Below, piece by piece: positions 3,748 to 30,429 of a stretch of 42,241 bases of DNA (positions are counted from its first letter, which is position 1; the number at the start of each line of letters is the position of its first letter). The DNA lies in contig JAJQEC010000127.1 of assembly GCA_021201815.1 (NCBI GenBank), positions 30,456-72,696 on the forward strand, written 5' to 3'. The DNA is from Candidatus Azobacteroides sp. (GTDB lineage: Bacteria > Bacteroidota > Bacteroidia > Bacteroidales > WRGA01). The notes beneath the pieces are model-generated. The model was not told the origin of the DNA. It saw only the letters and a list, made by a program, of their open reading frames with translations, and did not search any database. Position numbers and translations under genes: made by a program.

Positions 3748-3773
3748 CGCTGTTAATCATAAATAAAAATAAA

Positions 3774-5348: not shown

Positions 5349-5357
5349 TAAAAATAT

Positions 5358-5392
5358 ATACTGATACTGATAGAATATATCAGTATCAGTAT
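5358..5392 (+). terminator. Hairpin after susD (terminator or RNA-stabilising stem)
   Basis: A perfect 15-bp inverted repeat, ATACTGATACTGATA at 5358-5372 and its complement at 5378-5392, has a 5-base loop. It lies 9 bases after the susD stop. No run of T follows, so it may act as a 3' end protector or partial terminator rather than a full intrinsic terminator. Either would raise susCD levels over the downstream genes. Confidence 0.6.
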
Positions 5393-5438
5393 TAAATACA
5401 AATAATCATTTATGTTTAATTTTTAATTAATTACAATT

Positions 5439-6357: not shown

Positions 6358-6368
6358 AATATTCTGAA

Positions 6369-6401
6369 ATAAGAGCTATTATTTTGAATAATAGCTCTTA
6401 T
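6369..6401 (+). terminator. Hairpin between the third PUL gene and the enzyme genes
   Basis: A perfect 15-bp stem has a 3-base TTG loop (core AAGAGCTATTATT at 6371-6383, complement at 6387-6399, extended by two pairs outward). It lies 11 bases after the stop codon of the frameshifted gene and 10 bases before the next gene. Only a short AT-rich stretch follows, so leaky termination or transcript processing is more likely than a full stop. Confidence 0.65.
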
Positions 6402-6411
6402 AATAATAAAA

Positions 6412-7461: not shown

Positions 7462-7475
7462 GTATTTAGAAAGCT

Positions 7476-8924: not shown

Positions 8925-8941
8925 CTATATATTTTTTCACC

Positions 8942-10894: not shown

Positions 10895-10934
10895 ATAGAT
10901 ACATTGTAAGTCCTGAGTTTTAAATAAGTTTAAT

Positions 10935-11717: not shown

Positions 11718-11752
11718 AATTAATTAATTATAAATCAATAATACCAGAGATT

Positions 11753-13306
11753 ATGAAGAAATATATATTCTTCTTTTTATTTTTTGCAGGAACATTTCTT
11801 TCTCTTTCTGCCCAGAATGAATTATGGATAGATGATTTCGAAAACGGAGATAAAGGGTGGGAAAAAGTCAATACCGGATGGGTAGACATCGAAATTGTAG
11901 ACAACCCTCAGAAGTCCGGAATAAACACCAGCAGTAAAGTAATGAAATGTGTGCGGAAAACAAATTCGGAGTTTTATGCCGGACTGATCTTAAGAGGAGA
12001 AGTATCTGCTCAGGTCGGACCCTTCCCGAATGAATACCGCTATGCACATGTAAAAGTACTCAAAGAGACAAACGGAAAAGTCGGATTCAAAATAGAAGGT
12101 GGACCTAATAACAGTACCTATGCAGCAGAAGTTCCTTATACTCCGAATGGCGAATGGCAGGAATTAGTATTTGACATAGCAGGCGGCTTAGGTACCTTCC
12201 GGGATTTTTTTATCATGGTCGATCAGGCAACAACTATCAATTCCGACATTACGGTATATATCGACGACATTGTCCTCAAAACCGACCCGAACGCAGAAGA
12301 TTTTGAAGAAGTACTGCCCGGAACCTTTGAACTGGTTTGGCAGGACGAATTTGACGGAGATAAACTGGATACCGAGAAATGGAATTATGAAACCGATGCT
12401 ACGCATGGTCATGGTGGCGGAAATCATGAATGGCAGGTATACGTACAGAGTGAAGACAACTGCTTTATCAGAGATGGTAAGTTAGTGATAAGGGTTATTC
12501 AGACAGGGACAGGAGACAGAGGATACACTTCTACCCGCATCACTACCCAGGGAAAAGGGGATTGGAAATATGGCAAAGTCGAAGCCAGCCTGAAATTGCC
12601 GGCCGGCAGAGGCACATGGCCTGCTTTCTGGATGATGCCGACATATAGCATTTATGGAGGATGGCCTTACAGTGGTGAACTTGATATTATGGAATATGTA
12701 GGCTATGATCCGGGAGTTGTCCATGGAAATGTACACCGTGCTGCCGGCTCGGGAGGAAATAGCAATGGCAATAGTATCGCAGTGAATGGGGTAGAAGATG
12801 AGTTCCATACCTATACAATCGAATGGGAACCCGGATATATCAAGTGGTATGTAGATGGAGTCCATTTTCATACCTATCAGAATTTCAAAGACAGCGGTCC
12901 GGCATGGTGGCCTTTTGATCAGGAGTTCTTTGCCATTCTCAACTTTGCAGTTGGTGGAGACTGGGGAGGTTCACGTGGGGTAGATGAAGATCCTGCTAAC
13001 TGGCCGAAAGAATATGAAATTGATTATGTCAGAGTATACCAGAAAAAAGAGGAAACTTCTATCAGTAAAGGAACAGAAGCAAAGAAACCGAATGTAGTTC
13101 AATTGCCTGGTGACCTGGTAAAAGTGGAAAATTTATTACCTGGTTCTTCTATTGAAGTATATACAACTTCCGGAACAAAACTGCTTCATATTTCTGCCAA
13201 TCAGCAACAAGAAGTAATCAGTCTTTCGACTTATCCGAAAGGAATCTATATTATCCGGGTGATAGATGCCGAAAGTTCATACTCGGAAAAAATCCTTAAA
13301 AAATAA
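11753..13306 (+). CDS. GH16 beta-1,3-glucanase with N-terminal carbohydrate-binding-like domain and T9SS tail
   Basis: This 517-residue secreted enzyme starts with a signal peptide to about residue 20 (LSAQ). An N-terminal beta-sandwich (about 22-178) follows, starting ELWIDDFENGDKGWEKV and ending DITVYIDDIVL, a pattern common in carbohydrate-binding modules. The GH16 domain covers about 192-440, with GELDIMEYVG giving Glu309, Asp311 and Glu314. Residues about 445-517 form a T9SS sorting domain ending KGIYIIRVIDAESSYSEKILKK. The catalytic domain resembles the laminarinase branch (GTWPAFWMMP, WPFDQEFFAILNFAVGG). A hairpin follows the stop, so expression of the next gene may differ. Confidence 0.92.
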   Translation: MKKYIFFFLFFAGTFLSLSAQNELWIDDFENGDKGWEKVNTGWVDIEIVDNPQKSGINTSSKVMKCVRKTNSEFYAGLILRGEVSAQVGPFPNEYRYAHVKVLKETNGKVGFKIEGGPNNSTYAAEVPYTPNGEWQELVFDIAGGLGTFRDFFIMVDQATTINSDITVYIDDIVLKTDPNAEDFEEVLPGTFELVWQDEFDGDKLDTEKWNYETDATHGHGGGNHEWQVYVQSEDNCFIRDGKLVIRVIQTGTGDRGYTSTRITTQGKGDWKYGKVEASLKLPAGRGTWPAFWMMPTYSIYGGWPYSGELDIMEYVGYDPGVVHGNVHRAAGSGGNSNGNSIAVNGVEDEFHTYTIEWEPGYIKWYVDGVHFHTYQNFKDSGPAWWPFDQEFFAILNFAVGGDWGGSRGVDEDPANWPKEYEIDYVRVYQKKEETSISKGTEAKKPNVVQLPGDLVKVENLLPGSSIEVYTTSGTKLLHISANQQQEVISLSTYPKGIYIIRVIDAESSYSEKILKK

Positions 13307-13312
13307 TGGAAC

Positions 13313-13353
13313 CCGGATATAGGATGCATTGATATTCAAGGCATCCTTTCCGG
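13313..13353 (+). terminator. Interrupted hairpin after the third GH16 gene
   Basis: A 7-bp stem, AGGATGC at 13321-13327 with GCATCCT at 13341-13347, is enclosed by a second short stem, CCGGA at 13313-13317 with TCCGG at 13349-13353. It sits just after the stop codon and before an 84-base gap. It is followed by TCCTTTAAT rather than a clean T run, so termination would be partial. Confidence 0.45.
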
Positions 13354-13390
13354 TCCTTTAATAATTAACCCTTAAAAATACCAGACTAAC

Positions 13391-14560
13391 ATGTTTTATT
13401 TAAAAAAAATCATACCCATATCATTCCTTTTTTTCCTTTCTTTCCCAGGAATGTATGCTCATAGCAATGAGGATGAATATTATTTGGTTTGGGAGGATAG
13501 CTTTGATGGTCCGGAATTAGACGAAGCCAATACCTGGACGGCAGAGATCAGTCGTAGTGGAGGAGGCAATAACGAACTGCAGTATTACATCAGAGAAAAT
13601 ATTTCTATCGGGCAGGAACCTCAAAGCGGAGAAAGCTGTTTGATTATTACTGCTAAAAAAGAAAACTACGGTTCAAAGACCTGTACTTCCGGAAGACTGA
13701 ATACCTATGGCAAAATGTCATTCAAATATGGCAAACTGGAAGCCCGGATTAAATTGCCAAAAACGGCCAATGGACTGTGGCCCGCTTTCTGGATGCTTGG
13801 AAATGATTTTCATACTATCGGATGGCCTGCCTCCGGTGAAATAGATATTCTGGAAATGGGTGCCAAAGCCGGTATTCAGGCCGGCACACAAGATCGTTTC
13901 TTTAATGGTGCATGCCATTGGGGACCTTACTGGCAGGTGAATAACCCTATTCATGATGAGCATGTCACTGCTCCTTACAGTCTTCAGGATGATTTCCATC
14001 TTTTTACTCTTATCTGGGACAAAAATGCCATGAAAATGTACCTGGATATGGATATATATCCCGATAATCCTCCCTATCTGGAATTAGCAATTGATAACGT
14101 TGATAATCTCAATTCTCCGGGACATTATTTCCACAAACCGTTTTTTGTCATATTTAATGTAGCCATTGGTGGTGATTTTGTCGGAATATGGAATATTCTG
14201 GAAATAAGTGCTCTCAACAATGCAAACAACTTCCAGGCAAATATGTATGTTGATTATGTAAGATTATACCAGAAAGGAGATGAGGAGGAAGAGTTACATA
14301 TAGCTCAACCCACAGGAATAGAATCTTCTTCCGTAGAAGAAACAATTTTCTCTTTACATCATAATCCACAAACCGGAGAATTAGCTGTCCGGGGAAATGA
14401 AATCCCGCAGCAAATAACCATTTATAATCTTATGGGACAGAAAGTCGGAGGGGCCGAAAACACGGACAAAATAAATGTGTCTTCCCTTTCACAGAATATG
14501 TACGTAGTGGAACTACAAACAAATAGTGGAAAAACAGAAGTTTATAAAGTGAAACTTTGA
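13391..14560 (+). CDS. Divergent GH16 glycoside hydrolase with insertions and T9SS tail
   Basis: This 389-residue secreted GH16 enzyme has a signal peptide to about residue 23 (MYAH). Its motif GEIDILEMG gives Glu150, Asp152 and Glu155. It differs from the other three GH16 proteins here. The residue after the catalytic motif is not the usual VG, it lacks the WMMP cleft block (WPAFWMLG instead), and it has an inserted region with FNGACHWGPYWQVNNPIHDE followed by a long loop DMDIYPDNPPYLELAIDNVD. Such loops usually change substrate preference (for example lichenan, or branched or substituted glucan), but I cannot say to what. Residues about 305-389 form a T9SS-type sorting domain. It probably belongs to the same operon as the following GH3. 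Confidence 0.9.
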   Translation: MFYLKKIIPISFLFFLSFPGMYAHSNEDEYYLVWEDSFDGPELDEANTWTAEISRSGGGNNELQYYIRENISIGQEPQSGESCLIITAKKENYGSKTCTSGRLNTYGKMSFKYGKLEARIKLPKTANGLWPAFWMLGNDFHTIGWPASGEIDILEMGAKAGIQAGTQDRFFNGACHWGPYWQVNNPIHDEHVTAPYSLQDDFHLFTLIWDKNAMKMYLDMDIYPDNPPYLELAIDNVDNLNSPGHYFHKPFFVIFNVAIGGDFVGIWNILEISALNNANNFQANMYVDYVRLYQKGDEEEELHIAQPTGIESSSVEETIFSLHHNPQTGELAVRGNEIPQQITIYNLMGQKVGGAENTDKINVSSLSQNMYVVELQTNSGKTEVYKVKL

Positions 14561-14637
14561 TAGGGTATAATAAAAGAAAGGCATGTTAGCTGAATAAAAA
14601 ATACAGGATTAATACATACAAAAATACAACTTATTAT

Positions 14638-16878
14638 ATGATATCTTTTTACAAAAAATTCATAGGTTATATATGTCTTGGATTCCTTCTGGCTTCATTT
14701 ACCAATGATGGAAATGATCCGACAGAAGCAAAGATAAACGAATTGCTTTCAAAAATGACGCTGGAAGAGAAAATCGGGCAGATGAATCAGCTTACCGGTA
14801 CCGGCTTATCCGATGATATGAAAGGATTAGTAGCTGCCGGAAAAGTCGGTTCGATTTTAAATGAATTGGATGCAAAGACAACCAATGAATTGCAGCGCAT
14901 TGCTATAGAGAATAGCCGTCTGGGCATTCCGCTTGTTTTTGCCAGGGATGTAGTCCATGGTTTTAAAACCATTTTTCCCATTCCTTTGGGGCAGGCAGCC
15001 AGCTGGAATCCACAGGTGGCCGAGAACGGAGCCAGAGTGGCAGCCATGGAAGCTTCTTCCGTAGGAATCCGTTGGACATTTGCTCCGATGATCGATGTTT
15101 CCCGGGACCCACGGTGGGGGAGAATCGCAGAGTCCTGTGGGGAGGACCCTTATCTTACTTCTGTAATGGGGGTAGCTATGATCAAAGGCTTTCAGGGTGA
15201 AGACCTGACGGATCCTTCTTCTTTGGCTGCATGTGCCAAACATTTTGCCGGATATGGAGCCAGTGAAGCAGGAAAAGATTACAATACGACCTGGATTCCT
15301 GAACCTCAATTAAGAGAAGTCTTTTTACCACCTTTCGAAGCTGCCGTAAAAGCCAATGCGGCTACTTTCATGTGTTCCTTCAATGATATTAATGGTGTTC
15401 CTTCTTCCGGAAATCCGTACCTGAATAAAACGATATTGAGGGATGAATGGAAATACGATGGAATGCTAGTAAGCGATTGGGGTTCCATTGAACAAATGAT
15501 CCCTCATGGTTTCTGTGCAGACCTGAAAGAAGCTGCGGAAAAAGCAGCCAATGCAGCAGTAGATATGGATATGATGGGTTATGCCTATATGGTTCATCTG
15601 GAAGAACTGGTAAAATCAGGGGCCGTATCCGAAAAAACAGTGGATGAAGCCGTAAAGAATATCCTGAGATTAAAATTCCGCCTGGGTTTATTTGATAATC
15701 CTTATACAGAAGAGAAAGAAATACTTCCTTTTTACACACCGGAAGCTTTACAGATGGCAAAAGAAGCAGCCATCGAGAGTACTATCTTATTAAAAAACGA
15801 TAAAAATATTCTGCCATTAAATGATAATATTAAATCAGTAGCTGTCATAGGGCCTTTGTCGGATGCGCCGGCAGACCAGATCGGAACATGGTGTTTCGAT
15901 GGGGAACCGGAACATAGTGTGACTCCATTAAACGCCATTCAGGCCGAATATGGTAATAAAATAAAAATAATTGCCGAAAAAGGCCTGGCTTATAGCCGTG
16001 ATAAAGACCAGCAGGGAATTTCAAGAGCCGTAGCAGCAGCTCAACAAGCTGATGTCATCCTGTTTTTTGCCGGAGAAGAGGCTGTATTGTCGGGAGAAGC
16101 TCGTTCCAGAGCAGATATTAGTCTGCCGGGAGCACAATCCCAGTTGCTTTCCGAGCTGAAGAAATCAGGAAAACCGGTAGTAATGGTTGTAATGGCAGGT
16201 CGTCCCTTAACCATTCAGAAAGAAACAGAAGAAGCAGATGCGGTTTTATATTCATTTCATGCAGGTACAATGGCCGGACCGGCTTTGGCGGATGTTATTT
16301 TCGGAAAAGCGGTTCCCTCAGGAAAGCTACCGGTAACAATGCCTCGTATGGTGGGGCAGGTACCTATCTATTACGCACATAAAAATACCGGTCGTCCGGC
16401 ATCTAATATTGATCTGATTGATGATATTCCGGTAGGGGCAGAACAAACTTCCATTGGTTTCACCAGTTATCACCTGGATGCAGGAGATAGTCCTTTATTT
16501 CCGTTCGGATACGGGTTATCATACACAAATTTTGAATATACGGATTTGAAATTATCTTCAAATGAAATCGATAAAAATCAGAATATTACCATTCGCTGTA
16601 CTGTGAAAAATACAGGAAATAGGGAAGCGGCAGAAGTCGTTCAGTTGTATGTCCGGAATGTAGTTGCTTCTTTAGTTCGTCCGGTAAAAGAATTAAAAGA
16701 TTTCAATAAAGTTACCTTAAAACCGGGAGAAGCAAGGGAAATATCTTTTACCCTGACTCCGGAACAACTATCCTTCTGGGATTTAAATAATAAACGGGTA
16801 CTGGAAACGGGACTTTTCCATTGTTGGATCGGTACGAACAGTGCGGAAGGCTTGCAGGGAAGTTTTACCGTGAGATAA
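14638..16878 (+). CDS. GH3 beta-glucosidase (BglX-like)
   Basis: This is a GH3 exo-beta-glucosidase expected to release glucose from beta-1,3-gluco-oligosaccharides. The 746-residue protein has an N-terminal hydrophobic signal peptide (about 1-22) without a lipobox. The TIM-barrel has KHFAGYGASEAGKDYN and the nucleophile Asp280 in LVSDWGS. The second domain has the acid/base Glu487 in VLSGEARSRA, and a fibronectin-III-like C-terminal domain runs from about 640. There is no T9SS tail, so the periplasm is the likely location, matching the last step after import by SusCD. Length and domain order are standard for BglX-type enzymes. Confidence 0.93.
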   Translation: MISFYKKFIGYICLGFLLASFTNDGNDPTEAKINELLSKMTLEEKIGQMNQLTGTGLSDDMKGLVAAGKVGSILNELDAKTTNELQRIAIENSRLGIPLVFARDVVHGFKTIFPIPLGQAASWNPQVAENGARVAAMEASSVGIRWTFAPMIDVSRDPRWGRIAESCGEDPYLTSVMGVAMIKGFQGEDLTDPSSLAACAKHFAGYGASEAGKDYNTTWIPEPQLREVFLPPFEAAVKANAATFMCSFNDINGVPSSGNPYLNKTILRDEWKYDGMLVSDWGSIEQMIPHGFCADLKEAAEKAANAAVDMDMMGYAYMVHLEELVKSGAVSEKTVDEAVKNILRLKFRLGLFDNPYTEEKEILPFYTPEALQMAKEAAIESTILLKNDKNILPLNDNIKSVAVIGPLSDAPADQIGTWCFDGEPEHSVTPLNAIQAEYGNKIKIIAEKGLAYSRDKDQQGISRAVAAAQQADVILFFAGEEAVLSGEARSRADISLPGAQSQLLSELKKSGKPVVMVVMAGRPLTIQKETEEADAVLYSFHAGTMAGPALADVIFGKAVPSGKLPVTMPRMVGQVPIYYAHKNTGRPASNIDLIDDIPVGAEQTSIGFTSYHLDAGDSPLFPFGYGLSYTNFEYTDLKLSSNEIDKNQNITIRCTVKNTGNREAAEVVQLYVRNVVASLVRPVKELKDFNKVTLKPGEAREISFTLTPEQLSFWDLNNKRVLETGLFHCWIGTNSAEGLQGSFTVR

Positions 16879-16930
16879 ATATAATTGCAAAGTTCGGTTA
16901 ATCTATTTTCTAATTTTAAATTATATAATT

Positions 16931-18685
16931 ATGAAAACAACGACACTTAAAAAATTATTTTCCGTAGTCTTTCTGTTTTGTAGTATGATGGCTGTACAGG
17001 CCGGAAATCTTATTGACAGCAGTGAAAATTTAGCGTTGGGTAAAACCGCAATTGCCGGAGCAGGACAGGGCAATAATTCTCCGGATAAGGCCATTGACGG
17101 GGATGATAATTCTTACTGGCAGGCAGATATTCTGGAAAATGAATGGTGGTATATAGATCTGGAAAAAGTATATAATCTGGCAACTATTAAGATTCGTTGG
17201 GAAAATTCGTATGGTAAGGCCTTCGAATTATATACGGCAATAGATGATCCGACTGGCAATGAGGCAGCCTGGACATTAGTCAAAACTGTTGACCGGATGC
17301 TGGACTTTAGTGGTAATAACTTTTATGAGGAAGAGTTGGTTTTTACGAAACAAGCACGGTATATACGTTATAAAACACTGGAAAGAGGATGGTCGGATTA
17401 TGCTGTAGCTATTCGGGAATTCAGAATATTTGGCGTTAGTGAATATTCTCAAGTTTCGGTTCCTGAATTTTCCGGAGTGGCGTTAGCAGGTATCGAAGAA
17501 ATAAAAGGTGGTGAGGAAGCTTCTTTAACGATAGTTCCGTTGGATCAGGAAAATAATATTTATTCGGGAAGTGTAACAACGGTTGATAATGTTACTGTAA
17601 CTCCGGATAATGGCGGATTGGTAATTGAAGAACGTGACGGGATTTATTATATGGTGGCAAGAGATATGGGAACTTATACTATAAATGCACAAGTGACAGT
17701 GGACGGTGTTACCAGAACCGGTTCAAAAACAATTACGGTTATAGAAGATCCCAGAGTAGTAGAGATAACCATTTCAAAAATTTATCCTCTGGAAGCAGCT
17801 GTTGTAGGAGGACGTGCTATAGAGCTGACCGTAACATGTAAAGACCAGTACAATAATAATATTAATCCCGAAATAACCTGGGTAACAGGAGGAAATGGAA
17901 GTGTAACTAATAATAGATATTCTCCTGATCAAAAGGGTATGGTAACATTAAAAGCAACTTCTCAGACAAAAGCAGGTTTGGTGGAAAGTAATGAGATCAT
18001 TATTAATGTGATATCTGACCATGAAAATGTTGCCCTTGATAAAACAGTAACAGCAATTGATGGTTCTACTGGTCATCAGAATGCTGTAGATGGAAAAATA
18101 GAGACAGAGTGGATAATGCCCCATGTTCCGGAAAGTAATAATATTTATGATGCATGGCTATCAATTGATTTGGAAGAAGTGCATAATATTCATTTGGTAG
18201 AAGTCTGGTGGGAAGGAGCTTGTTCTGCTGATTTTACAATCGATTTTTCTTCTACCGGTACAGATGATGCGGACTTTGTTTCCCATCATACCTTTACAGA
18301 TCAGCCCGGTATGAGTACTATCGTTCAGCAGGGGCATGGAAGTGTAATACCTGCAAGACATGTAAGAATTTATTCTACTAAGGCTGCTACTAATTATGGA
18401 GTAAAAGTAAAAGAAGTTTTTGTGTATGGAGAAACAGCTATACCTACTTCTCTTACTAATATAGCCGGAGAAGATATTGAAATCTACACCGATTTACAGG
18501 AAAAAGCAATCCGGATTTCAGAAGTTGTAAATCAGGTGAATATATATTCTGTACAAGGACAGGCTGTGTTAATGGATCAGAACACAGACCGTGTGGATAT
18601 AGCTTCATTGAACAATGGTTTTTATATTGTGAATGTAATTGATGCTAACGGCAATCAGAAAAATGTAAAAATAACTGTTCGATAA
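16931..18685 (+). CDS. Secreted non-catalytic protein with two discoidin domains, Ig-like repeats and T9SS tail
   Basis: I see no catalytic domain in this 584-residue protein. It has a signal peptide (to about residue 25, MAVQAG), a first F5/8 type C (discoidin) domain at about 30-170 (ENLALGKTAIAGAGQGNNSP, DGDDNSYWQAD, ending EFRIFGV), two bacterial Ig-like segments at about 175-360 (each with the PLDQENN or CKDQYNN style), and a second discoidin domain at about 362-505 (ENVALDKTVTAIDGSTGHQN). It ends in a T9SS sorting domain (NNGFYIVNVIDANGNQK). It is likely a surface or extracellular glucan-binding protein that helps the enzymes hold the polymer. The function is inferred from domain types and position. 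A strong hairpin follows the stop. Confidence 0.8.
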   Translation: MKTTTLKKLFSVVFLFCSMMAVQAGNLIDSSENLALGKTAIAGAGQGNNSPDKAIDGDDNSYWQADILENEWWYIDLEKVYNLATIKIRWENSYGKAFELYTAIDDPTGNEAAWTLVKTVDRMLDFSGNNFYEEELVFTKQARYIRYKTLERGWSDYAVAIREFRIFGVSEYSQVSVPEFSGVALAGIEEIKGGEEASLTIVPLDQENNIYSGSVTTVDNVTVTPDNGGLVIEERDGIYYMVARDMGTYTINAQVTVDGVTRTGSKTITVIEDPRVVEITISKIYPLEAAVVGGRAIELTVTCKDQYNNNINPEITWVTGGNGSVTNNRYSPDQKGMVTLKATSQTKAGLVESNEIIINVISDHENVALDKTVTAIDGSTGHQNAVDGKIETEWIMPHVPESNNIYDAWLSIDLEEVHNIHLVEVWWEGACSADFTIDFSSTGTDDADFVSHHTFTDQPGMSTIVQQGHGSVIPARHVRIYSTKAATNYGVKVKEVFVYGETAIPTSLTNIAGEDIEIYTDLQEKAIRISEVVNQVNIYSVQGQAVLMDQNTDRVDIASLNNGFYIVNVIDANGNQKNVKITVR

Positions 18686-18695
18686 TTTATTCTAT

Positions 18696-18727
18696 ATGGG
18701 ATGTAGCTTTTTCAGGCTACATCCCAT
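18696..18727 (+). terminator. Hairpin terminator after the discoidin protein
   Basis: A perfect 12-bp stem, ATGGGATGTAGC at 18696-18707 and GCTACATCCCAT at 18716-18727, has an 8-base loop and is followed by an AT-rich stretch. It lies 10 bases after the stop codon and before a 0.7 kb gene-poor gap, so it probably ends the first enzyme transcript. Confidence 0.7.
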
Positions 18728-19420
18728 GATTATTTCCTGTCATTGTATTCCTGAAATTATAAGAAAACACTTTTATTTATTATAAGAGAAGAGTATCCCA
18801 TGTCGTTTCGGTTTTTGTTACTTTCAAATCGGAATGCAACATTCTCAGAGGAAACCGGATTCATAAAAGAAAAATACCATGAGAAAAATTATCTTTCCTT
18901 TTTTCCTTATTTTTCTTACAAATTATCATATCGCAAAGGAGCTGATATCAGTTTCTCATGTCTATTCTTATACGCTTGTTATATGAATCAGAAAATGGAA
19001 TAATATTGCAGATACTTAAAATAGCTAGGATGGTCTCTGGCCATTTAAAGCCAATGGCTTTTCTGAAAATAAAAAATTACAAAGACGGAGGAATTAACAA
19101 AACCTCATCCGAATACTTTTTTTCGGATGCTTCTGATAGTACGCAGATACAGAAATGGAAACCATCAGGTATTTAGTTTTTATTCTGAAAAAGTTAATTT
19201 CTCATTAAGAGGTAAAAAAGTTTTTTCCATGCTCCGGAATTAGTATAAAAATAAAACCTTGTAAAATTCATCCGGATATTCAATAAAAAAATGCACATAT
19301 AAAAGATTTATACACTTGTTAAAATCCTATGTTCCGGAATGACAAGAACAGGTAAAAAGATGTTCCCTGAAAGTTCCTTGCTTATTAGTTATTGAAAAAT
19401 ATACATTAAATAAACCCATA
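18728..19420. other. Gene-poor gap before the GH81 gene, possible decayed ORF
   Basis: No convincing gene is present. An ATG at 18879 opens a 35-codon frame with a signal-peptide-like start (MRKIIFPFFLIFLT) that stops at 18986. A following frame to 19176 has no recognisable domain. Two hairpins lie inside, CATCCGAA/TTCGGATG at 19106-19129 and GCCATT/AATGGC near 19040-19058. TTCCGGAAT-like palindromes occur near 19230 and 19333. This may be a decayed secreted-protein gene or a long regulatory leader for the GH81 gene. I see no clear -7 promoter element. Confidence 0.35.
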
Positions 19421-22400
19421 ATGAAAAAATATATCTTCTTGCTTGCTGTTTTTTCCTTTTCTCTTTCTCTATTTTCTCAACAGTCCATCCCCCTGGGAAA
19501 AGGCAGTTATGCTGAGTATCCACCCGAAAGTGTCTGGGATGAAGATGGGTATTTTGCAAAAGAATACCGCTGGTTTAAAGATAACTGGCAGAATCTTTAT
19601 CTGCATGACAATGTACGCAACAGACCTCTCCCGACAAATGACTGGTGGACAAATTATGTTTTCTCCCAATACGGAGGAGAAGCGTGGGCATATCCACATG
19701 CCGTATCAGCCAACAATGAAGGAATCAATATCATGATTCCGAATGGATTTCAGGGCGGAGGAATGATCACCACGCCACTACTGAAAGTAAAAGGAACCAC
19801 TTCGCTTCAGAGCAATGAGGAATCTGTCATCTTTGCCGATTTTGAAAGCCCGGACTATCCGGAAGGTTGGACAATTGTGGGAACAGCTCCCTATCCGGGT
19901 CCCGTAACCTTGCAGGATGTCGATCAGAGCCCGGAACCGAACGGATTTACCGGAGAACGCTTTATGAATACCTATAAAGGAAATGAAGCAACCGTAACTT
20001 TTATCTCGAATAGCTTTGTCATAGAAAAAGATTATATCCGCCTGCTGGTCGGTGGTGGTGATTATATTGACGAAACGTACGTCGGACTCTTTATTGATGG
20101 GATAAGAGTATTTGCTGAAACCGGCCAGAATAGTGGTACCCTTACTTCCAGGTTATGGGATGTAACTTCGTATAAAGGCAAGACCGCTGAAATCCGGATT
20201 GTGGATAATTCAACCGGAGGCTGGGGCTTTATTATGTGTGATGAAATTATCTTTACCAATAGTACCTTTGGGGGGAGCGGGTATGCAAATGATTTTACAC
20301 CAGCTAATTCAAACGTATATGACTGGACCGATCTTGGTTTTACATTCCGGTGTGAAGACAATAACAACCGGTATATGGATGTTACATCAGTACACGGTAT
20401 TCCATATGTTTGGTTGGAATTCAAAGATATTGTACCCATTATCACTCCGGAAAAAACGGCTGCTGTATATACTGTGGCCGGGCAGTTAGTCGATGAATAT
20501 CCGGTACAGCTTTCTGTTTTTGCTATGGAATTCGGAGACCGCATCTATGGAGTTCATGTACCGGAAGGAAGCATATTGCATAAGTCAAAAGGAGAGGACT
20601 TTCAAATAGAACTACCGGCTTCTCATAAGTTTGTGGTTGTTTCGGCTTTACCCACAAAAGAGTTGCTGGGCACCTACGATCTGTATGCCAGAAACAAACC
20701 GGAAAATACCTTGTTTAATTGGGAATACCGGATAAATGAAGGAAAAGTAGCCACTTCTTTCCGCATAGAAACAAAAAATTTACAAACCGGCCAGACAGGC
20801 GGGGAAACCTTAATGAGCTTCCTGCCCCATCATTACCGGACAACAACTAAAAATTTTAATTTTATATCCGGTGCCGATTACCGGAATATCCTGGGAACCA
20901 TGCATACGGCACCCGGCAGCGAGTTTACCGTAGCGTATTTTTTCGGAGGTATGCCTCCTTATCTGCCGGAACCGTTGGACTTAACAGATATGCAGCGAAA
21001 CCGTCTCAACACGATGATAAGTAATGTTGCCAATAGTTCCGGAGGATATAATGGAAACACATATGCAAAAGGATTAGGTGAGCAGTCAAATATGATGTTG
21101 ATGGCAAAATCCATGGATAATCAGGGATTCGAAACGTTGAAGACAAATTTGAAAACGGAACTGGAAGACTGGTTTACTTTTGATGCATCCGAAGCCACAA
21201 AAAAACAATATTTCTTTGCGGAATATCCCGATTATGGTGCCATCATCGGCTTCCCTCCCGGATATGGTTCACAGGGATTCAACGACCTGCATTTTCATAA
21301 TGGCTACTTTACGATGGGAGCGGCACGATTAATGATGGTCGATAAAGAATTTAAAAGAGACTTCGCGGAAATGGCAAAGCTCGTTACCAAATCGTATGCC
21401 AACTGGAAACGCTACGAAGAAACTGGTGGAAATTATCTGCCGTTTCTCAGGACATTTGACCCGTATGTCGGACACTCATGGGCCGGAGGAACAGGAGATG
21501 GCGGCGGAAATAACCAGGAATCTACTTCCGAAGCGATTCATTCCTGGTTCGGAATTTACCTGATGGGTGTAGAATTGAATGATCCGGAAATTATCAGCCT
21601 GGGAGCAATGGGTTACTTACTGGAAACCACTGCTGCCAACGAATACTGGATGGACATGTACGAAGATAATTTTTCTCCGACGTACACAAAAGATTATGTA
21701 GGAATCCTGCGCACCAATGATCTGGCATGGGCTACTTATTTCAGCGGGGATCCCGCCTGGGTGCTGGGCATACAGGCTGTTCCATGTGACTTTTTTTACC
21801 AGTATCTGGGACAACATCCGGAAAGGACAAAGACGATCTTTGAATCTATGCTTTACGATCGTACAACCACTTATTATGATGGAAAACCTTTTGCGGAAAA
21901 TACCAATCCCTATGACAATATCCGGAATATGGGAGCGTACCTGGGAGGTTATCACCTGAATATAATGAATAATTTCGATCCTGTTCTTTCTGCACAACTG
22001 ACAGATGATTTGTATGAGCTTGGAGGAGAATGGACTACCCATATCAATATGGCAACGAATTATTATGTAAGTAATGCGACCATTACCTATGGACTGCCGG
22101 CCGAAGGCTATCATACCAGCATTGCTTCCGGAGCAGTCTATAAAAATGCGGAAGGAGAGCTGACTTATCTGCTTTATAACCCGACCAATGCAGAGGTAGA
22201 TGTAAATATATACAAAGATGGAATCCTAATTGAAACCGTACGGGTAGGAGCCGGGAAATATTATAATTCGCGGATTGTCGGAGGGCAGAAACCTAATGTA
22301 ACCATCACTACCTATCAGGATGGGAATAAAATGGCATTAAATAAAGAAGTAAAAATAAATGCAACTGCTACGGACAGGGATGGAAGCATCTTATGGGTAG

Positions 22401-23875
22401 AGTTTTACCTGGACGAAGAACTTATCGGAACTTCCTATGCAGAGCCATATCAGGTTACCCTGAAACCGGAAACAGCCGGGACAAAATTCCTGAAAGCAAT
22501 AGCAACGGATAATGACGGACTGAAAAGTGATCCTTATATGGTCGAATTAGAAGTCCTGAATATTGAACAAACCCCATTTAATGGTACTCCCTGGAATGTG
22601 CCCACAGATAAAATACGTGCAGTTGAATTTGATGAAGGGGGACCGGAAATATCCTGCCATGATAATGAAATTGAAATGCAGGGGGGAGATAATTACCGTC
22701 CGGGTACAGGTGTGGAAACAGAAGGTACGGCGAGTGGCGACGGAAATATCGGCTATACGAATACCGGGGAATGGTTCGAATATACCATGTATGTGGAAAC
22801 AACCGGTATGTATGAACTTTTTGTAAATTTATCTTCTGCCGGAGGTGGAGCGTTGCAAATAGATATAGATGGAGAAGATATGACAGGAGCAGTTCCGGTG
22901 CCTGATACCGGAGCCTGGGGGAATTATACCGATGTTTCTTTGGGAAAAATACCCTTAAAAGAGGGAAAACATATCATGCGGGTAACCGTTGCAAAAGTGG
23001 GAGCTAATCTGAGTTCCTATAAATTTACTTTCCTGCCCGGAGAAAATATGCCGCCGGAAGTAATCGTAGGAGAAACCCAAATCATTTATTCTCCTGCTAA
23101 CACAGCGAATCTGCTGGCAGAAGGAAAAGCATACGGAGATGCCACTATTACGGCATATCAGTGGGAGCAGACAGACTCAAACACCGAAGTGATAATTTCT
23201 ACACCCGATCAGGCTGCTACCCAGGTATCAGGACTGGAAAACGGAACATATCAATTTAAAGTAACGGTTACGGATACACACGGTTTGACAGGTTCGGAGC
23301 AAACCGTGGTAGTAGTGCGTCCTGCTAATTTCCCACCGGTTGCTAATCCGGGAAACAGCCGTACCGTTCCTTATTCGGAACATGTCGTGCTCGATGGTAC
23401 CCATTCTTTTGACCCGGACGGAACGATTGTGAAATACGTATGGGAGCAGGTAGATACAAATACTCCGGTTATTCTTGAACAACTGAGTGTGATAGACCCT
23501 CTTGCGACTGCATCGGGTTTTGAACCGAATAAATTATATATTTTCCGGTTGACTGTCACCGATAATGAAAATGCTTCTACGTCTGAAAATGTACGCATTT
23601 TTACGGAAATGCCTACAGGGATAGGGGAAGCGCTTACTCCGGAAATAACTATTTATCCGAATCCTTTTACAGATTATTTAATCATTGATTTAAAAGAAAG
23701 CGGAAAGGAATTTGAAAAAATTAAATTGTATTCGGTTACCGGAAACGTCGTACTGGAAGAAAACATACGAGGACGTTCTTCTTTGCAGCTAAATACATCG
23801 GAATTAAAACGCGGATATTATATTCTCGTACTCTCATCCGATCAACAGGTTATTTCCCGTAAAGTAATAAAGTAA
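19421..23875 (+). CDS. GH81 endo-beta-1,3-glucanase with Ig-like, CBM6 and PKD domains and T9SS tail
   Basis: This very large secreted enzyme (1484 residues) should hydrolyse beta-1,3-glucan internally. After a signal peptide (about 1-20, LFSQ) the GH81 catalytic region covers about 25-940 and includes an inserted beta-domain near 135-290. Conserved blocks are RPLPTNDWWTN, the acidic segment FNDLHFHNGY with Asp622, and GGGNNQESTSEAIHSWFG with Glu700 and Glu704, the usual catalytic Asp plus Glu pair of the family. An Ig-like domain (about 965-1045), a CBM6 domain (about 1067-1205), two PKD-type domains (about 1209-1390) and a T9SS domain (from ITIYPNPFTD, about 1410) follow. It is separated from the previous genes by a hairpin and 0.7 kb, so it may have its own promoter. 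Confidence 0.92.
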   Translation: MKKYIFLLAVFSFSLSLFSQQSIPLGKGSYAEYPPESVWDEDGYFAKEYRWFKDNWQNLYLHDNVRNRPLPTNDWWTNYVFSQYGGEAWAYPHAVSANNEGINIMIPNGFQGGGMITTPLLKVKGTTSLQSNEESVIFADFESPDYPEGWTIVGTAPYPGPVTLQDVDQSPEPNGFTGERFMNTYKGNEATVTFISNSFVIEKDYIRLLVGGGDYIDETYVGLFIDGIRVFAETGQNSGTLTSRLWDVTSYKGKTAEIRIVDNSTGGWGFIMCDEIIFTNSTFGGSGYANDFTPANSNVYDWTDLGFTFRCEDNNNRYMDVTSVHGIPYVWLEFKDIVPIITPEKTAAVYTVAGQLVDEYPVQLSVFAMEFGDRIYGVHVPEGSILHKSKGEDFQIELPASHKFVVVSALPTKELLGTYDLYARNKPENTLFNWEYRINEGKVATSFRIETKNLQTGQTGGETLMSFLPHHYRTTTKNFNFISGADYRNILGTMHTAPGSEFTVAYFFGGMPPYLPEPLDLTDMQRNRLNTMISNVANSSGGYNGNTYAKGLGEQSNMMLMAKSMDNQGFETLKTNLKTELEDWFTFDASEATKKQYFFAEYPDYGAIIGFPPGYGSQGFNDLHFHNGYFTMGAARLMMVDKEFKRDFAEMAKLVTKSYANWKRYEETGGNYLPFLRTFDPYVGHSWAGGTGDGGGNNQESTSEAIHSWFGIYLMGVELNDPEIISLGAMGYLLETTAANEYWMDMYEDNFSPTYTKDYVGILRTNDLAWATYFSGDPAWVLGIQAVPCDFFYQYLGQHPERTKTIFESMLYDRTTTYYDGKPFAENTNPYDNIRNMGAYLGGYHLNIMNNFDPVLSAQLTDDLYELGGEWTTHINMATNYYVSNATITYGLPAEGYHTSIASGAVYKNAEGELTYLLYNPTNAEVDVNIYKDGILIETVRVGAGKYYNSRIVGGQKPNVTITTYQDGNKMALNKEVKINATATDRDGSILWVEFYLDEELIGTSYAEPYQVTLKPETAGTKFLKAIATDNDGLKSDPYMVELEVLNIEQTPFNGTPWNVPTDKIRAVEFDEGGPEISCHDNEIEMQGGDNYRPGTGVETEGTASGDGNIGYTNTGEWFEYTMYVETTGMYELFVNLSSAGGGALQIDIDGEDMTGAVPVPDTGAWGNYTDVSLGKIPLKEGKHIMRVTVAKVGANLSSYKFTFLPGENMPPEVIVGETQIIYSPANTANLLAEGKAYGDATITAYQWEQTDSNTEVIISTPDQAATQVSGLENGTYQFKVTVTDTHGLTGSEQTVVVVRPANFPPVANPGNSRTVPYSEHVVLDGTHSFDPDGTIVKYVWEQVDTNTPVILEQLSVIDPLATASGFEPNKLYIFRLTVTDNENASTSENVRIFTEMPTGIGEALTPEITIYPNPFTDYLIIDLKESGKEFEKIKLYSVTGNVVLEENIRGRSSLQLNTSELKRGYYILVLSSDQQVISRKVIK

Positions 23876-23888
23876 ATAGAAGATAAAA

Positions 23889-23930
23889 GTTGCCTTCAGG
23901 AGAAAACTTTCGAATGAAGGCAGTCTTTTT
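23889..23930 (+). terminator. Hairpin with T run after the GH81 gene
   Basis: TGCCTTCA at 23891-23898 pairs with TGAAGGCA at 23915-23922; the sequence then reads GTC followed by five T. It lies 15 bases after the GH81 stop and fits an intrinsic terminator. It overlaps the longest possible start of the next gene, which argues for the later start at 23974. Confidence 0.6.
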
Positions 23931-23973
23931 GAATTCTTTTCAACTTTCTATTAGTGAAAATAAAATACAAGTT

Positions 23974-26900
23974 ATGCGTCAGACAACTTTAATAATAGGA
24001 CTGATTTTTACTACTTTCCAACTGGCTTTTTCCCAGATTCTTGTCAGTGAAGGAAAAGAAAGCCGGGCATCCTCCGTAGAAGCCGGCAATGGAGCTCAGT
24101 ATGGAAATGACGGGAATGAAGGAACCCGTTGGGAAAGTAACTGGGGAGCAGAGAATCCGGACCCGGATGACGAATGGTGGGCAGTGGATCTCGGAAAAGA
24201 ATACCACATTACCCGGGCTGAATTTGTATGGGAGAATGCATACGCAAAAGAATACAAAATAGAGATATCCAATGACCGGGATTTTTCTGAATATACGGAA
24301 ATCGCTTATGTGACAAATGGGGCAGGAGGAAATGAATCAGTACCCACAGACATCAATCCCAAAGGAAGATATGTCCGGTTCCAGGGAATAAAACGGGCAA
24401 CGGGATACGGTTACTCTTTTTATGAGTGCCGGTTTTACGGGCTGGAAGAGTTAACCGCTGTTCCGATTAAAATCGAAGTGCCCTATGTGCAATACCTTAA
24501 AGTAAACCTTTCTCCGGAAGACTTAAATGGAACAAATGAATTGATTATACAAAATACCAACCAGACCGTGGTCCTTATGTATAATGAAGGAAGTCCCTTA
24601 AAAATTTCGTTGCTGGACTTCCGCGGAGATTTCCACATTGATTTCTGGTCACTGGAAAAAGGTTCGGAAACGGATACGATAAAGGGAATACCCCTGAATG
24701 TAGTGGTATATGAAGATATGGTCATACATGTACATCTGACTCCTAAGATCACTTTTGGAAATCAGTCTCCTATTGCAGATGCCAGTCCGGATAAAATCAT
24801 TTATTATCCGGAAAGTAGCGTGGAACTGGACGGTTCCCGGAGTGTGGATGCGGATGGAGAAATAATCAGTTATAACTGGTCGCAGGTCAGTGGTCCTACG
24901 GAAGCTGTCTTATCTGATCCGAACAGTGCGAAAACCACGGCTTCTGAATTAACGCTGGGAGATTATAAATTCCGGTTGACTGTGGTCGATGATTCTCTGG
25001 CAGTCGGAACGGATGATATTATTATTACGGTTTCTCCTCCTGAACAAGTGGATTTTAACCTTGTCTATCCTGCGGACAAAGGGATGATAACAAATACCCG
25101 GCGACCGTCTTTTCAATGGGAAGAAGTACCCGGTGCTACTACCTATGAAGTATTTATAAATATTACCCGCGATGATTATGAGTGGTATTCTTCCGGTAAT
25201 CTGCTGGACCGGTATACAAAAGTAGGGGAAACATCTTCCAATTCTTTTACATTGACCGGTGACCTTGTAGACCGTTGGACATATAAGTGGTATGTAATTG
25301 CTTCCACTCCGAAAGGAATGAAATATTCCAACAAACAACAGTTCGGGCTATACATTCCTATTCTGGAACAAGAGCCGGATGGAATAGATATTGTGGATGG
25401 ATGCCGGGATTTGAATAAGAATGGAACCATCGAGCCGTTTGAAAACTGGCGTTTGACCCCGGAAGAACGACTGGATGACCTGATGAGCCGTCTTACCACA
25501 GAAGAAAAAATCTCCCAGCTTTTCTACGGAGGAAATGATAATCCGTTAGATGGATTTGCTTTTTCCTATGGCGTAGAAAGTGGTATGCGGGAAAGCCAGT
25601 ACAATGCCTCTAAAACGCGGATGGGAATTCCGATTGCTTTTCTGGGAGATAAAGCACATGGCTGGAAGACAATTTATCCCACACAACTTGGTTTGGCAGC
25701 GACCCGCGATATGGATCTGGTTTACCAATGTGGAAATCTGCATCGGATAGAACAAAAATCATTCGGCTTTACAGGTACACTGGCTCCTGTCGCAGAAGTA
25801 AATACAAAAGTCCTTTATCCCAGGATTCAGGAAGGATGCGGGGAAAATGCAGAAGAAGCTGCCGCGATGATCCGGGCGATTGTTTGCGGAATGCAGGGAG
25901 GACCGGAAATTAACCCTCACTCTATGATGATTACTATGAAGCACTGGCCCAGCCAGGGAGCAGGAGGGGAGAGTACCCTGCAATACGATGAGGTGACCAT
26001 AAAATACCATATGAAACCCTGGCATGCAGCCGTGGAAGCAAATGCAGCATCCGCTATGCCCGGTTATAATACATGTCCTTTCCTCGATCCCATGAACGGG
26101 GCAAACACAAGTAAAAAAGTAATTGATTACCTCCGGAATGAAATCAAATTCGATGGGTTTGTCGTTACCGACTGGTTGGCAGCCAATACCGAACAATCAA
26201 TAAAAAGTATGAATGCCGGTGTGGAAGTAATGGGAGGAGCACCTTCTTCCGAGACTGATTTCGATGAATTGCTGGAAGCCGTAGGAATAGAACGGATTGA
26301 TGAAGCCGTACGAAGAGTCCTGAATGTAAAAATCCGCATGGGGATGTTCGAGAATCCGTATGGAGACCCGGAATGTACCTGGACAAACGAAGAACATCAC
26401 GAAATAGTACTGAATGCAGCCCGAAAGTCCCTTACACTATTGAAAAATGAGAATGTCCTGCCCTTAAAACTACAGCCGGAAGATCAGCTTTTAGTAACCG
26501 GGCCTTTGGCAGACTGGGAACATCAGAATGATGATCCCAATGTAATCTGGCAATCTGTTTATTATGATAATCCACAGGCAAAGCGTTTTTTTGAAGCGAT
26601 TAAAGAACGGGCTCAACAGGGAAACATAAAAGTAGTTGCAGACAATGTGGAAAATCCGGAAACGGCAATCGTTGTCATCGGGGAAAAAGCTTATACCCAT
26701 GGCACAGAATGGGAAGACAAGAACCCGGATATTCCGGAAGAACAGTTGAGCATTCTCAGGGAACTGAAAGAAAATGGCGTAAAAGTTGTCACTGTGGTGA
26801 TAATGCCCCGTCCGTATGTATTGACACCCGTAGTTGAATTATCGGATGCCATTCTGGTGGTTTACCGGGGTGGCAATGGAATAGGCCAGGCAGTGGCAGA

Positions 26901-27684
26901 ATGTATGTTCGGCGATTTTGCCCCTTCCGGAAAATTGCCTTTCCAGTTACCACGTTCACAATCTCAAATCGGAACAGATAAGGAAACGGATCAGGTTGAG
27001 AAATGGGAACTACCTTACGATCTTGGCGCTACAGATGCCGAAAGGGCATTGATTTATAATTACATTAAAGATGATTTAACAGTACCTCCTATTTTCGGAG
27101 ATCCATTGTTTCAGTATGGATTCGGAATTCAGGGCTTTGGAATAGAAGATGATACTCCTCCGCTGGAATTTAATTTATTATCTCCTGAAAATGATGCACA
27201 ACTGGAAAAAAATACGGTTGTATTTACCTGGGAAGCAAGTGCGGACCCTGAATCTTCCATTTCCTGTTATGATATATATATCAACGATACCAAACGGGCT
27301 TCCGTTACAAATACCAGCTACAGGCTCGATCGGATAGAAGACGGAGAATATTCCTGGTATGTAGTCGCTGTGAATGGTGCCGGTTTGACACAAAAATCTC
27401 CTGTGTATACTTTAAAAGTAGGAACCCCTGTTGCATTATCTGAAAACCGGCATGGAGTTTCAATATACCCCAATCCGTTTCAGGATCATATCAATATTGA
27501 AATACGGAATGGAGAAACCATAAGCTCCCTGAAGATAGTAGATATTACCGGACGGATTATTAAAGAAACGGAAGTAGATACACCATCTATTACACTAGAT
27601 ATGTCGGACTACCAGACCGGAGTCTATTTTTTAATCCTGGCAAAAGAGAAAGAAACACAGCTAATAAAAATTATAAAGAAATAA
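23974..27684 (+). CDS. GH3 glycoside hydrolase fused to discoidin and PKD domains, with T9SS tail
   Basis: This is a secreted exo-acting GH3 enzyme with binding modules in front. I chose the start at 23974 because it opens a proper signal peptide (MRQTTLIIGLIFTTFQLAFSQ), while the frame upstream to 23890 runs through a terminator hairpin. In this 1236-residue form, a discoidin domain covers about 25-160, a PKD domain about 255-355, and a fibronectin-like domain about 360-455. The GH3 catalytic part begins near 465 (DLNKNGTIEPFENWRLTPEE), with KHWPSQGAGGES and the nucleophile Asp733 in VVTDWLAA. A fibronectin-like segment and a T9SS domain (VSIYPNPFQD) end it. The KHWP-type loop differs from BglX-like GH3s, so it may work on longer glucan ends; this is inference. 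Confidence 0.9.
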   Translation: MRQTTLIIGLIFTTFQLAFSQILVSEGKESRASSVEAGNGAQYGNDGNEGTRWESNWGAENPDPDDEWWAVDLGKEYHITRAEFVWENAYAKEYKIEISNDRDFSEYTEIAYVTNGAGGNESVPTDINPKGRYVRFQGIKRATGYGYSFYECRFYGLEELTAVPIKIEVPYVQYLKVNLSPEDLNGTNELIIQNTNQTVVLMYNEGSPLKISLLDFRGDFHIDFWSLEKGSETDTIKGIPLNVVVYEDMVIHVHLTPKITFGNQSPIADASPDKIIYYPESSVELDGSRSVDADGEIISYNWSQVSGPTEAVLSDPNSAKTTASELTLGDYKFRLTVVDDSLAVGTDDIIITVSPPEQVDFNLVYPADKGMITNTRRPSFQWEEVPGATTYEVFINITRDDYEWYSSGNLLDRYTKVGETSSNSFTLTGDLVDRWTYKWYVIASTPKGMKYSNKQQFGLYIPILEQEPDGIDIVDGCRDLNKNGTIEPFENWRLTPEERLDDLMSRLTTEEKISQLFYGGNDNPLDGFAFSYGVESGMRESQYNASKTRMGIPIAFLGDKAHGWKTIYPTQLGLAATRDMDLVYQCGNLHRIEQKSFGFTGTLAPVAEVNTKVLYPRIQEGCGENAEEAAAMIRAIVCGMQGGPEINPHSMMITMKHWPSQGAGGESTLQYDEVTIKYHMKPWHAAVEANAASAMPGYNTCPFLDPMNGANTSKKVIDYLRNEIKFDGFVVTDWLAANTEQSIKSMNAGVEVMGGAPSSETDFDELLEAVGIERIDEAVRRVLNVKIRMGMFENPYGDPECTWTNEEHHEIVLNAARKSLTLLKNENVLPLKLQPEDQLLVTGPLADWEHQNDDPNVIWQSVYYDNPQAKRFFEAIKERAQQGNIKVVADNVENPETAIVVIGEKAYTHGTEWEDKNPDIPEEQLSILRELKENGVKVVTVVIMPRPYVLTPVVELSDAILVVYRGGNGIGQAVAECMFGDFAPSGKLPFQLPRSQSQIGTDKETDQVEKWELPYDLGATDAERALIYNYIKDDLTVPPIFGDPLFQYGFGIQGFGIEDDTPPLEFNLLSPENDAQLEKNTVVFTWEASADPESSISCYDIYINDTKRASVTNTSYRLDRIEDGEYSWYVVAVNGAGLTQKSPVYTLKVGTPVALSENRHGVSIYPNPFQDHINIEIRNGETISSLKIVDITGRIIKETEVDTPSITLDMSDYQTGVYFLILAKEKETQLIKIIKK

Positions 27685-27685
27685 A

Positions 27686-27709: not shown

Positions 27710-27744
27710 CGTTATATCTATTTTTTAATTTAATTCATTTATTT

Positions 27745-29112
27745 ATGAAAACAAAAAACTTACTAAAGTTAAGTGCAGTCTCTTTCGGACTGCTGTTGGC
27801 AAGTGGAGTGATGGCTTTAGACCATGGGTCTATGGTAGGTGTCGGGGAACCTCTTTATCCTCTTCGGAATGGAGCTGCTCCGGGAGCTGCAGTGGAAGCA
27901 ACAATGGATTTTAAGCTGGTGACGATTGGTGAAAAAACATGGGTTTATACCAATCTGAATGGAATGGTAATTGCTGAAACCGCATGGGGCTCTCAGCTTC
28001 GTTATTGGCCCGGAGGAACAGAAAACTGGCTGTCAGGGCGTGTGAACGGAACACAGGAAACTTACGGAACGGTAGAGAACCTTCCATCAGTGCCACAAAC
28101 TATCACATTTATGCAGGAACAAGCCAATGCCTTCTTTGAAACAATGGATTATAGTTATGACAAAACAATCAAAAACAGCTTGGATCCTACGGATACGGAA
28201 AAGCCGGTACTAATAGAAGCTACAAATGTAAATTTTACAGGAGTAGCGCTGACGCTGAAATTAGCGGCTACAGATAATTCGGGTCAGTATTTTTATCATA
28301 TTATCGATGAAGAAAAAGGAATAGAAGAGATCAGCTTTTTTGATAATTTTGTAATTACTGGGCTTTTGCCTGACACAGAATATAACCTGACGGTTACGGC
28401 AATTGACTTTTCCGGAAACGAAAGCGATCCTAAAACGGTACAGTTAGGTGAAACAGAACTGGTAAGTATTACTTCCGGTATTGCAAAGGATATCTATTTT
28501 GAACTTAGCAGTACATCTAACTCTGTGACTGTTTTCTGTAAACCGGTCGCGGATGGAGCCGTCTTTTCTGATGCTTATATCAAAATCGCACACATTGAAG
28601 GAGATTTGTCAAATGGGGCAGAAATTAAGACTTTAACTAATGAGTGGGCCGGTGTTCCTTCTTATACTTATACTATTTCTAATCTGGATTTTTTTGGTGA
28701 AGGAGAAATCATACAACTGGATTTGGGTTACCTGTTTGGCCCGATTACTAACCCACCGTCAGAACAATGGGAGTGGGATGCTTTATTTGGTGCGTATGTT
28801 ATAGATAATACGTTTATTACAGAAGGTGAATTTGCCGGTTCTCCTATTTTTCATATCATGGCAGGTGATCCTACCTCTGCTCCGAAAGTGAAAGAAACTG
28901 CTTCTTCTATTGAAAAAAGAGGAGAGGAAATCATTATTTCTACTAACAATGGAGTTGCGTCAGCCGGATTATATACCTTAAACGGACTTCTGGTATCTTC
29001 TTTATCCGGTGTAAATGTAATTGGAACATCTTCTTTGAATAAAGGGATTTATATATTAAAAGTAACAGATACCGAAGGCAATCAGGACGTTTTTAAAGTA
29101 GTGATTGACTAA
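27745..29112 (+). CDS. Secreted protein of unknown function with fibronectin III and T9SS domains
   Basis: I do not recognise the N-terminal domain. The start at 27745 is chosen because it gives a clean signal peptide (MKTKNLLKLSAVSFGLLLAS, ending near MALD); the longer frame from 27703 runs through a hairpin. The 455-residue protein has an N-terminal region (about 25-140) rich in glycine and aromatic residues (TAWGSQLRYWPGGTENWLSG), a fibronectin-III-like domain (about 150-235, with PDTEYNLTVTAIDFSGNESD), a beta-rich region (about 240-375) and a C-terminal T9SS domain ending KGIYILKVTDTEGNQDVFKV. As the last gene of the PUL it is a candidate novel glucan-binding or enzyme component. That role is inferred only from position and export signal. 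Confidence 0.75.
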   Translation: MKTKNLLKLSAVSFGLLLASGVMALDHGSMVGVGEPLYPLRNGAAPGAAVEATMDFKLVTIGEKTWVYTNLNGMVIAETAWGSQLRYWPGGTENWLSGRVNGTQETYGTVENLPSVPQTITFMQEQANAFFETMDYSYDKTIKNSLDPTDTEKPVLIEATNVNFTGVALTLKLAATDNSGQYFYHIIDEEKGIEEISFFDNFVITGLLPDTEYNLTVTAIDFSGNESDPKTVQLGETELVSITSGIAKDIYFELSSTSNSVTVFCKPVADGAVFSDAYIKIAHIEGDLSNGAEIKTLTNEWAGVPSYTYTISNLDFFGEGEIIQLDLGYLFGPITNPPSEQWEWDALFGAYVIDNTFITEGEFAGSPIFHIMAGDPTSAPKVKETASSIEKRGEEIIISTNNGVASAGLYTLNGLLVSSLSGVNVIGTSSLNKGIYILKVTDTEGNQDVFKVVID

Positions 29113-29158
29113 CAAATAATATTTTTCCTTTAATTGTATTGTATTTGTAACTCTAACA

Positions 29159-29198
29159 GAAAAGAGGATAAAAACAGCATGTGTTTTGTCCTCTTTTC
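29159..29198. terminator. Bidirectional terminator between convergent genes
   Basis: A 15-bp stem with one T-G wobble (GAAAAGAGGATAAAA at 29159-29173, partner at 29184-29198) has a 10-base loop. It has A and T runs built into its arms, so it can work in both directions. It lies between the last PUL gene and the convergent nitroreductase gene and probably ends both transcripts. Confidence 0.8.
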
Positions 29199-29231
29199 AC
29201 TTATATTCCTTTTATACTCTACTAATTATTT

Positions 29232-30320: not shown

Positions 30321-30349
30321 CGGTTTATTTTGTCAAAAAGGTATATTAA

Positions 30350-30414: not shown

Positions 30415-30429
30415 GCTGGTATTTTATCT

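Follow-up and report, generated by a model that had tools for sequence, protein, structure and literature searches.

The closest described counterpart of the protein analyzed here is BtSGBP-B of B. thetaiotaomicron, which according to the excerpted text of its report (mBio 2020, PMC7157763) bound yeast beta-glucan as well as laminarins in affinity gels and in ITC. The same excerpt describes the SGBPs of such loci as having particularly low sequence similarity, and SGBP-Bs are characterized as multi-domain proteins in the excerpted text of PMC12016534. A further likeness is offered by a cellulose-binding Bacteroidota protein of an atypical PUL, which belongs to a family unrecognized by sequence and was found via its predicted fold and an assay. 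It differs from the present protein in its two CBM-like domains and in a cluster that has no SusD-like partner.

The present protein, here called the target, is encoded in a window of 42,241 nucleotides (the whole stretch of DNA that was analyzed) from contig JAJQEC010000127.1 of Candidatus Azobacteroides sp. With BtSGBP-B it shares a SusC/SusD beta-1,3-glucan locus, a multi-domain build and, by prediction, a non-catalytic nature. BtSGBP-B is a lipoprotein, whereas the target has a T9SS tail and two orphan domains, termed N and M. The target gene is the last of its PUL, whereas the gene of BtSGBP-B follows SusD. Among the features of an SGBP-B, location in a SusC/SusD glycan locus was found for the target and also for its ortholog, while neither a gene position directly after SusD nor a known binding module was found for the target. 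A module homologous to both BtSGBP-B modules is present in the ortholog, not in the target. As both the module and the position of an SGBP-B are absent, the target is said here to work like an SGBP-B, not to be one. That it is a T9SS-exported, non-catalytic, SGBP-B-like accessory protein, whose lineage-specific beta domains hold beta-1,3-glucan, is the preferred reading and is regarded as an even call. The features of the gene and its surroundings are the following:

520..27684, + strand: rest of the PUL, from Pfam.
27745..29112, + strand: target gene, an ORF with ATG start, 455 aa.
27745..27816, + strand: signal-peptide-like N-terminus, residues 1-24, judged by eye from the translation, with no lipobox cysteine.
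27817..28188, + strand: N domain, residues 25-148, an orphan with no Pfam match at E<=10 when searched alone.
28189..28446, + strand: FN3-like domain, residues 149-234, from a sub-cut-off PF00041 match.
28447..28863, + strand: M domain, residues 235-373, the second orphan domain.
28864..28929, + strand: linker, residues 374-395, from the alignment with the ortholog; site of the ortholog's 174-aa module.
28930..29106, + strand: T9SS type A sorting domain, residues 396-454, from TIGR04183.
29154..29203, + strand: terminator-like hairpin, an inverted repeat with 20-nt arms that are 85% complementary.

The PUL comprises SusC, SusD, a split pair of small ORFs, four GH16, two Glyco_hydro_cc (which we take to be the Pfam family of GH128), a GH3, a protein with two F5/8C domains, GH81 and a second GH3. 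The target terminates the co-directional run that starts with SusC and is separated from the preceding GH3 gene by 60 bases. Given a 735-base gap upstream of GH81, the run may comprise more than one transcript. Downstream of the target lies a nitroreductase gene on the opposite strand, and beyond it tagaturonate reductase, glucuronate isomerase and KDPG aldolase, all over their cut-offs, form a hexuronate cluster. The region of the hairpin (29110-29215) reached an RNA fold z-score of -4.0; the hairpin itself was absent from the list of a simple terminator scan. Based on the hairpin, the opposite-strand nitroreductase and the hexuronate cluster, the PUL most likely ends with the target gene, so that its designation as the last PUL gene in an earlier sequence-only reading holds for the window. 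Rfam over 26000-32300 returned nothing useful, and a promoter scan gave six sites against 5.9 expected, which is no signal.

Several other genes of the locus were also characterized. The slot after SusD is filled by two overlapping ORFs on the + strand (5439-5903 and 5884-6357), which, taken as a pair, match a single 334-aa protein encoded after SusD in the PUL of the ortholog, with 30.8 and 36.6% identity to the halves, respectively. The gene at 5439-6357 is therefore interrupted in the window, either through a mutation or through an error of the assembly. A related domain follows SusD in G097 (L085:13201-14181, E 1.2e-16), another is present in G197 (L057, E 2.1e-5), and Pfam gave only a sub-cut-off Por_Secre_tail for the two ORFs and their counterpart in the ortholog's locus. 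The GH81 of the window (19421-23875) is divergent, as the C-terminal Pfam model, 349 positions long, matches over 103-278 only and its N-terminal counterpart scores under cut-off. Comparably short GH81 matches were seen in its relative in G001, the genome of the ortholog, and in one protein of G097. Elsewhere in the window genome (G000), the GH81 frame at G000:C56:30645-35170 (L055:8646-13171) is broken by one TAG and adjoins a 423-aa protein with a GGMSVTK-type module (E 6.7e-18); this region is probably a second beta-1,3-glucan locus of the window genome.

The program-made ORF of the target opens upstream at TTG 27703. ATG 27745 was taken as the start because the alignment with the same-genus ortholog begins there, and the 50% identity of the N domain to that ortholog identifies the target as a real coding gene. 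Its description as an exported T9SS protein was borne out: TIGR04183 scored 25.9 bits against a cut-off of 23 on the tail, which comes together with the signal-peptide-like start seen by eye, and both the signal peptide and the surface location are predicted. PF18962 (Por_Secre_tail) scored 16.4 bits, under its cut-off of 27. On the whole target, Pfam returned sub-cut-off fn3 and Por_Secre_tail together with two weaker models in the FN3 range. Enzyme families over cut-off were found in neither Pfam nor NCBIfam, and the target is predicted to lack catalysis.

In the center of the protein, PF00041 scored 17.1 bits, below its cut-off of 25. The label “FN3-like” is considered fair for residues 149-234 since a relative, L011, reaches 33.2 with the same model. 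Related FN3 domains occur in further Bacteroidales proteins: the FN3 range of the target matched G012, G023, G007, G004 and G043 as well as contig C115 of its own genome, and GH81 was found in frames of equal length to the FN3-match frames in G012 (1594 aa) and G004 (1584 aa). NCBIfam MXAN_2561 matched in the FN3 range at E 0.0012 in the whole-protein search, and the phage tail protein of PDB 9d93 matched residues 198-238 at E 6.9e-5. PHROG 382 (residues 194-239, E 2.2e-4) was the sole PHROGs match below 0.001, and three weak PHROGs matches fell outside the FN3 range at E 0.16-0.32.

The sequence-only reading had also claimed an unrecognized N-terminal domain. No believable Pfam or PDB match was found for it, and the claim has to be extended, as there are two such domains, N and M. 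The M region (residues 235-382) searched alone in Pfam gave SprB at E 0.27 and nothing else. PDB profile searches gave a pyridoxamine phosphate oxidase at E 0.11 as the best match for N and no match for M. Residues 25-142 of the N domain are 50% identical between target and ortholog, with conserved motifs including KTWxxTNL and SQLRYW and several invariant aromatic residues, and the M domain is 35% identical; invariant acidic residues are present in both. With two known members only, this conservation tells little about binding sites.

The N domain is probably beta-rich. Structure prediction and fold search, which had been proposed as a check, yielded no fold: AF2 models from two input sequences were poor, with a mean pLDDT of 43.4 for the core and 41.8 for the N domain, and indicate little more than “mostly beta”. 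Foldseek with the core model gave no match at E<=0.001, and the 50 listed of its 1477 matches were mostly of Ig/FN3 type with TM-scores of at most 0.32. Because of the poor models and these low TM-scores, no fold is claimed for the target. Profiles were further compared with hhalign, calibrated on reversed and shuffled controls, which reached 2.8%; in the positive case, two sets judged by eye to be of the same (GGMSVTK) module type reached 59.5%. Probabilities against candidate modules were 0.1-1.2% for N and 0.1-1.7% for M. As these lie at control level, N or M as a divergent GGMSVTK, L011, P0002, C56 or BtSGBP-B module was rejected.

Within the own genome, 22 matches to the target were found at E<=10, namely the target itself, one match in the FN3 range and T9SS tails. 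When the whole target was searched against this genome and 59 relatives, eight of the 60 genomes matched at E<=0.001, and besides the window genome only G001 held an ortholog; in the remaining genomes, the matches were confined to the FN3 region or the tail. G002, which is 65% complete and the third genome of the genus, contained neither the target gene nor a GH81 match. In the order, the N-domain profile matched 3 of 393 genomes at E<=0.01, and the believable ones were G000 and G001; the match in G225 was dismissed, as it spans 35 columns and the protein around it appears, by eye, to be Rhs-like. The same two genomes were the believable ones among the 6 of 393 matched by the M-domain profile at E<=0.05, the other four matches being partial and set in proteins that, by eye, are of a different kind. 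In the phylum, 14 of 395 genomes matched the N-domain profile at E<=0.05, with G000 as the believable one. The 13 others were set aside because they cover part of the profile (29-87 columns) and mostly fall in other kinds of protein or in frames with stops; the hardest to dismiss was L037 with 29 columns in a 95-aa frame. The core profile found G000 only among 109 class genomes at E<=1e-5. The order, phylum and class sets are samples of the genomes, and within the samples searched, the N and M domains were found in one other genome only.

Two back-translated patterns from the core alignment were run over a species-genome collection (84,980 species by its own description), where such scans detect close relatives only; they returned 35 stretches with one relative, WRGA01000112.1. 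A single-protein scan of genome contigs led nowhere, and the viral contigs and plasmids searched gave no useful match; a comparison of the neighbor gene at 16931-18682 with phages was likewise of small value. GH81 was found in 18 of the 393 order genomes, two of which have the N domain, and GH81 loci thus do not generally come with this domain. In G097, a 50-kb region that carries two GH81 and is masked in places had no match at E<=1 among its frames of at least 100 aa. A clear homologue among housekeeping surface proteins outside PULs would have spoken against the sequence-only reading. All non-ortholog matches in the own genome and its relatives were in the FN3 or tail range, with no housekeeping surface protein among them, and the genomes sampled held no believable homologue of N or M outside PULs.

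The sole ortholog found (L009:1498-3354 in G001, same genus) is 43% identical over target residues 8-373 and comes from WRGA01000112.1 of the MAG “Candidatus Azobacteroides sp. isolate Mp193P4bin6” (L009, L025). The excerpted text of PMC7024585 uses Mp193 as the code for its sample from Microcerotermes parvus, a wood-feeding termite, and by kinship the window genome would likewise come from a termite gut. Target and ortholog have the same domain order (N, FN3-like, M, T9SS) and both lie in a beta-1,3-glucan PUL. The ortholog's PUL contains SusC/SusD, two GH128, GH16, GH2, GH3 and GH81 in a gene order that is rearranged relative to the window. Presence in other GH81/GH128 PULs, which had been suggested as a check, was thus seen in this one further PUL, within the genus only. 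The ortholog differs in being internal to its PUL, whereas the target is last, and in an extra 174-aa module between M and the T9SS tail.

This module, for which Pfam was empty at E<=10, matched both tandem modules of BtSGBP-B (PDB 7kwb, a chain equated with the published BtSGBP-B by name; residues 142-286 and 304-454) at E=5.5e-23. No copy was found in the window genome at E<=1, and one match in G002 at E 0.34 is at chance level. By homology, of the two members of the target family, one carries a glucan-binding module of a published type and the other does not. Between the two loci, the target is 40.8% identical, similar to SusC (44.0%), SusD (45.5%) and one GH128 (40.2%), while the other GH128 (61.3%), GH81 (56.4%) and a GH16 (46.4%) are better conserved. 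In G001, a GH3 C-terminal fragment follows GH81 (L021:7697-8605), with 54.7% identity to the end of the window's second GH3; this GH3 gene is thus either truncated in G001 or was broken by the assembly.

In the proposed role, the target would be exported by the Sec system, cross the outer membrane through the type IX secretion system and stay attached to the cell surface. There, its chain of beta domains (the orphans N and M, with the FN3-like domain as a spacer between them) would capture or present beta-1,3-glucan, which would be handed to the GH16, GH81 and GH128 enzymes and the SusC/SusD importer. The protein would thus work like an SGBP-B, with T9SS export and lineage-specific domains as the differences. 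Glucan binding by N and/or M is suggested by the beta-1,3-glucan PUL in both species and the BtSGBP-B-type module of the ortholog, while the absence of that module from the target and the lack of profile similarity of N and M to it point against a binding role.

The absence of the module also feeds the strongest competing explanation, a rather unlikely one in our estimate, in which the target is a structural or adhesive surface protein with N, FN3 and M as spacers. Glucan binding of the ortholog would then come from its extra module only, which the target lost or never had. FN3 domains are common spacers, and among the modules, only the one absent from the target has a relative whose ligand is known. 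However, N is better conserved than M (50 vs 35%) and retains several invariant aromatics, unlike a free spacer, and the gene was kept within the PUL in both species.

An improbable alternative sees in N or M a small domain of a new type, with catalytic or lytic action on beta-1,3-glucan. Both contain invariant acidic residues, their neighbor genes mostly encode enzymes, and NCBIfam exoglucan_CbhB touches residues 137-257 at E 4.6e-4, but this match reaches 18.3 bits where the cut-off is 1950, and it lies in the FN3 range. At about 120-140 residues each, N and M are small, as glycoside hydrolases are usually larger than this. An LPMO needs a histidine at the mature N-terminus, which the ortholog lacks at its likely cleavage site (by eye), and no enzyme family was over cut-off. 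Where the sequence-only reading had proposed a carbohydrate-binding or lytic component, the lytic part has no evidence of its own. The binding part is plausible and partly supported, indirectly, by the ortholog in a GH81/GH128 PUL and its BtSGBP-B-type module.

Least probable of the readings is that N is a divergent copy of the GGMSVTK module, an un-named module of about 97 aa in Bacteroidales beta-1,3-glucanases, in part beside FN3: N sits at the same place with respect to the FN3 domain as this module and, by eye, loosely resembles it in pattern, and the module lies in frames of the length of the GH81 match in three of the 7 out of 247 order genomes in which it occurred at E<=0.001, but the profile comparison gave 0.9% over 25 non-collinear columns, below the best controls and far from the two GGMSVTK sets. 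The module itself had no believable Pfam match in the two copies scanned. Copies were found in L010, L017, L055, L057 and L058, and it recurs in GH81-containing frames and in one GH16-looking protein (by eye), in some proteins beside the same FN3 subtype as in the target. It may deserve a family of its own.

Returning to the binding role, the target is probably a lineage-specific sugar-capturing surface protein, as judged from the BtSGBP-B-type module of its relative. A bolder and more tentative possibility is that N and M are the first members of two families of carbohydrate-binding modules restricted to the Azobacteroides lineage of Bacteroidales, where they would have evolved for holding beta-1,3-glucan on a surface protein displayed by the T9SS. 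The glucan might, for instance, stem from fungal cell walls in the gut of termites, and the SGBP-B-type module would be exchangeable, with one species having it and the other not. Accessory glycan-binding proteins of PULs are difficult to recognize from their sequence, and they contribute to the choice of glucans that a species can use. This case offers two domains without named relatives and a pair of species that differ by one known type of glucan-binding module. With a full beta-1,3-glucan enzyme set beside the target, a single round of binding assays could found new families of binding modules.
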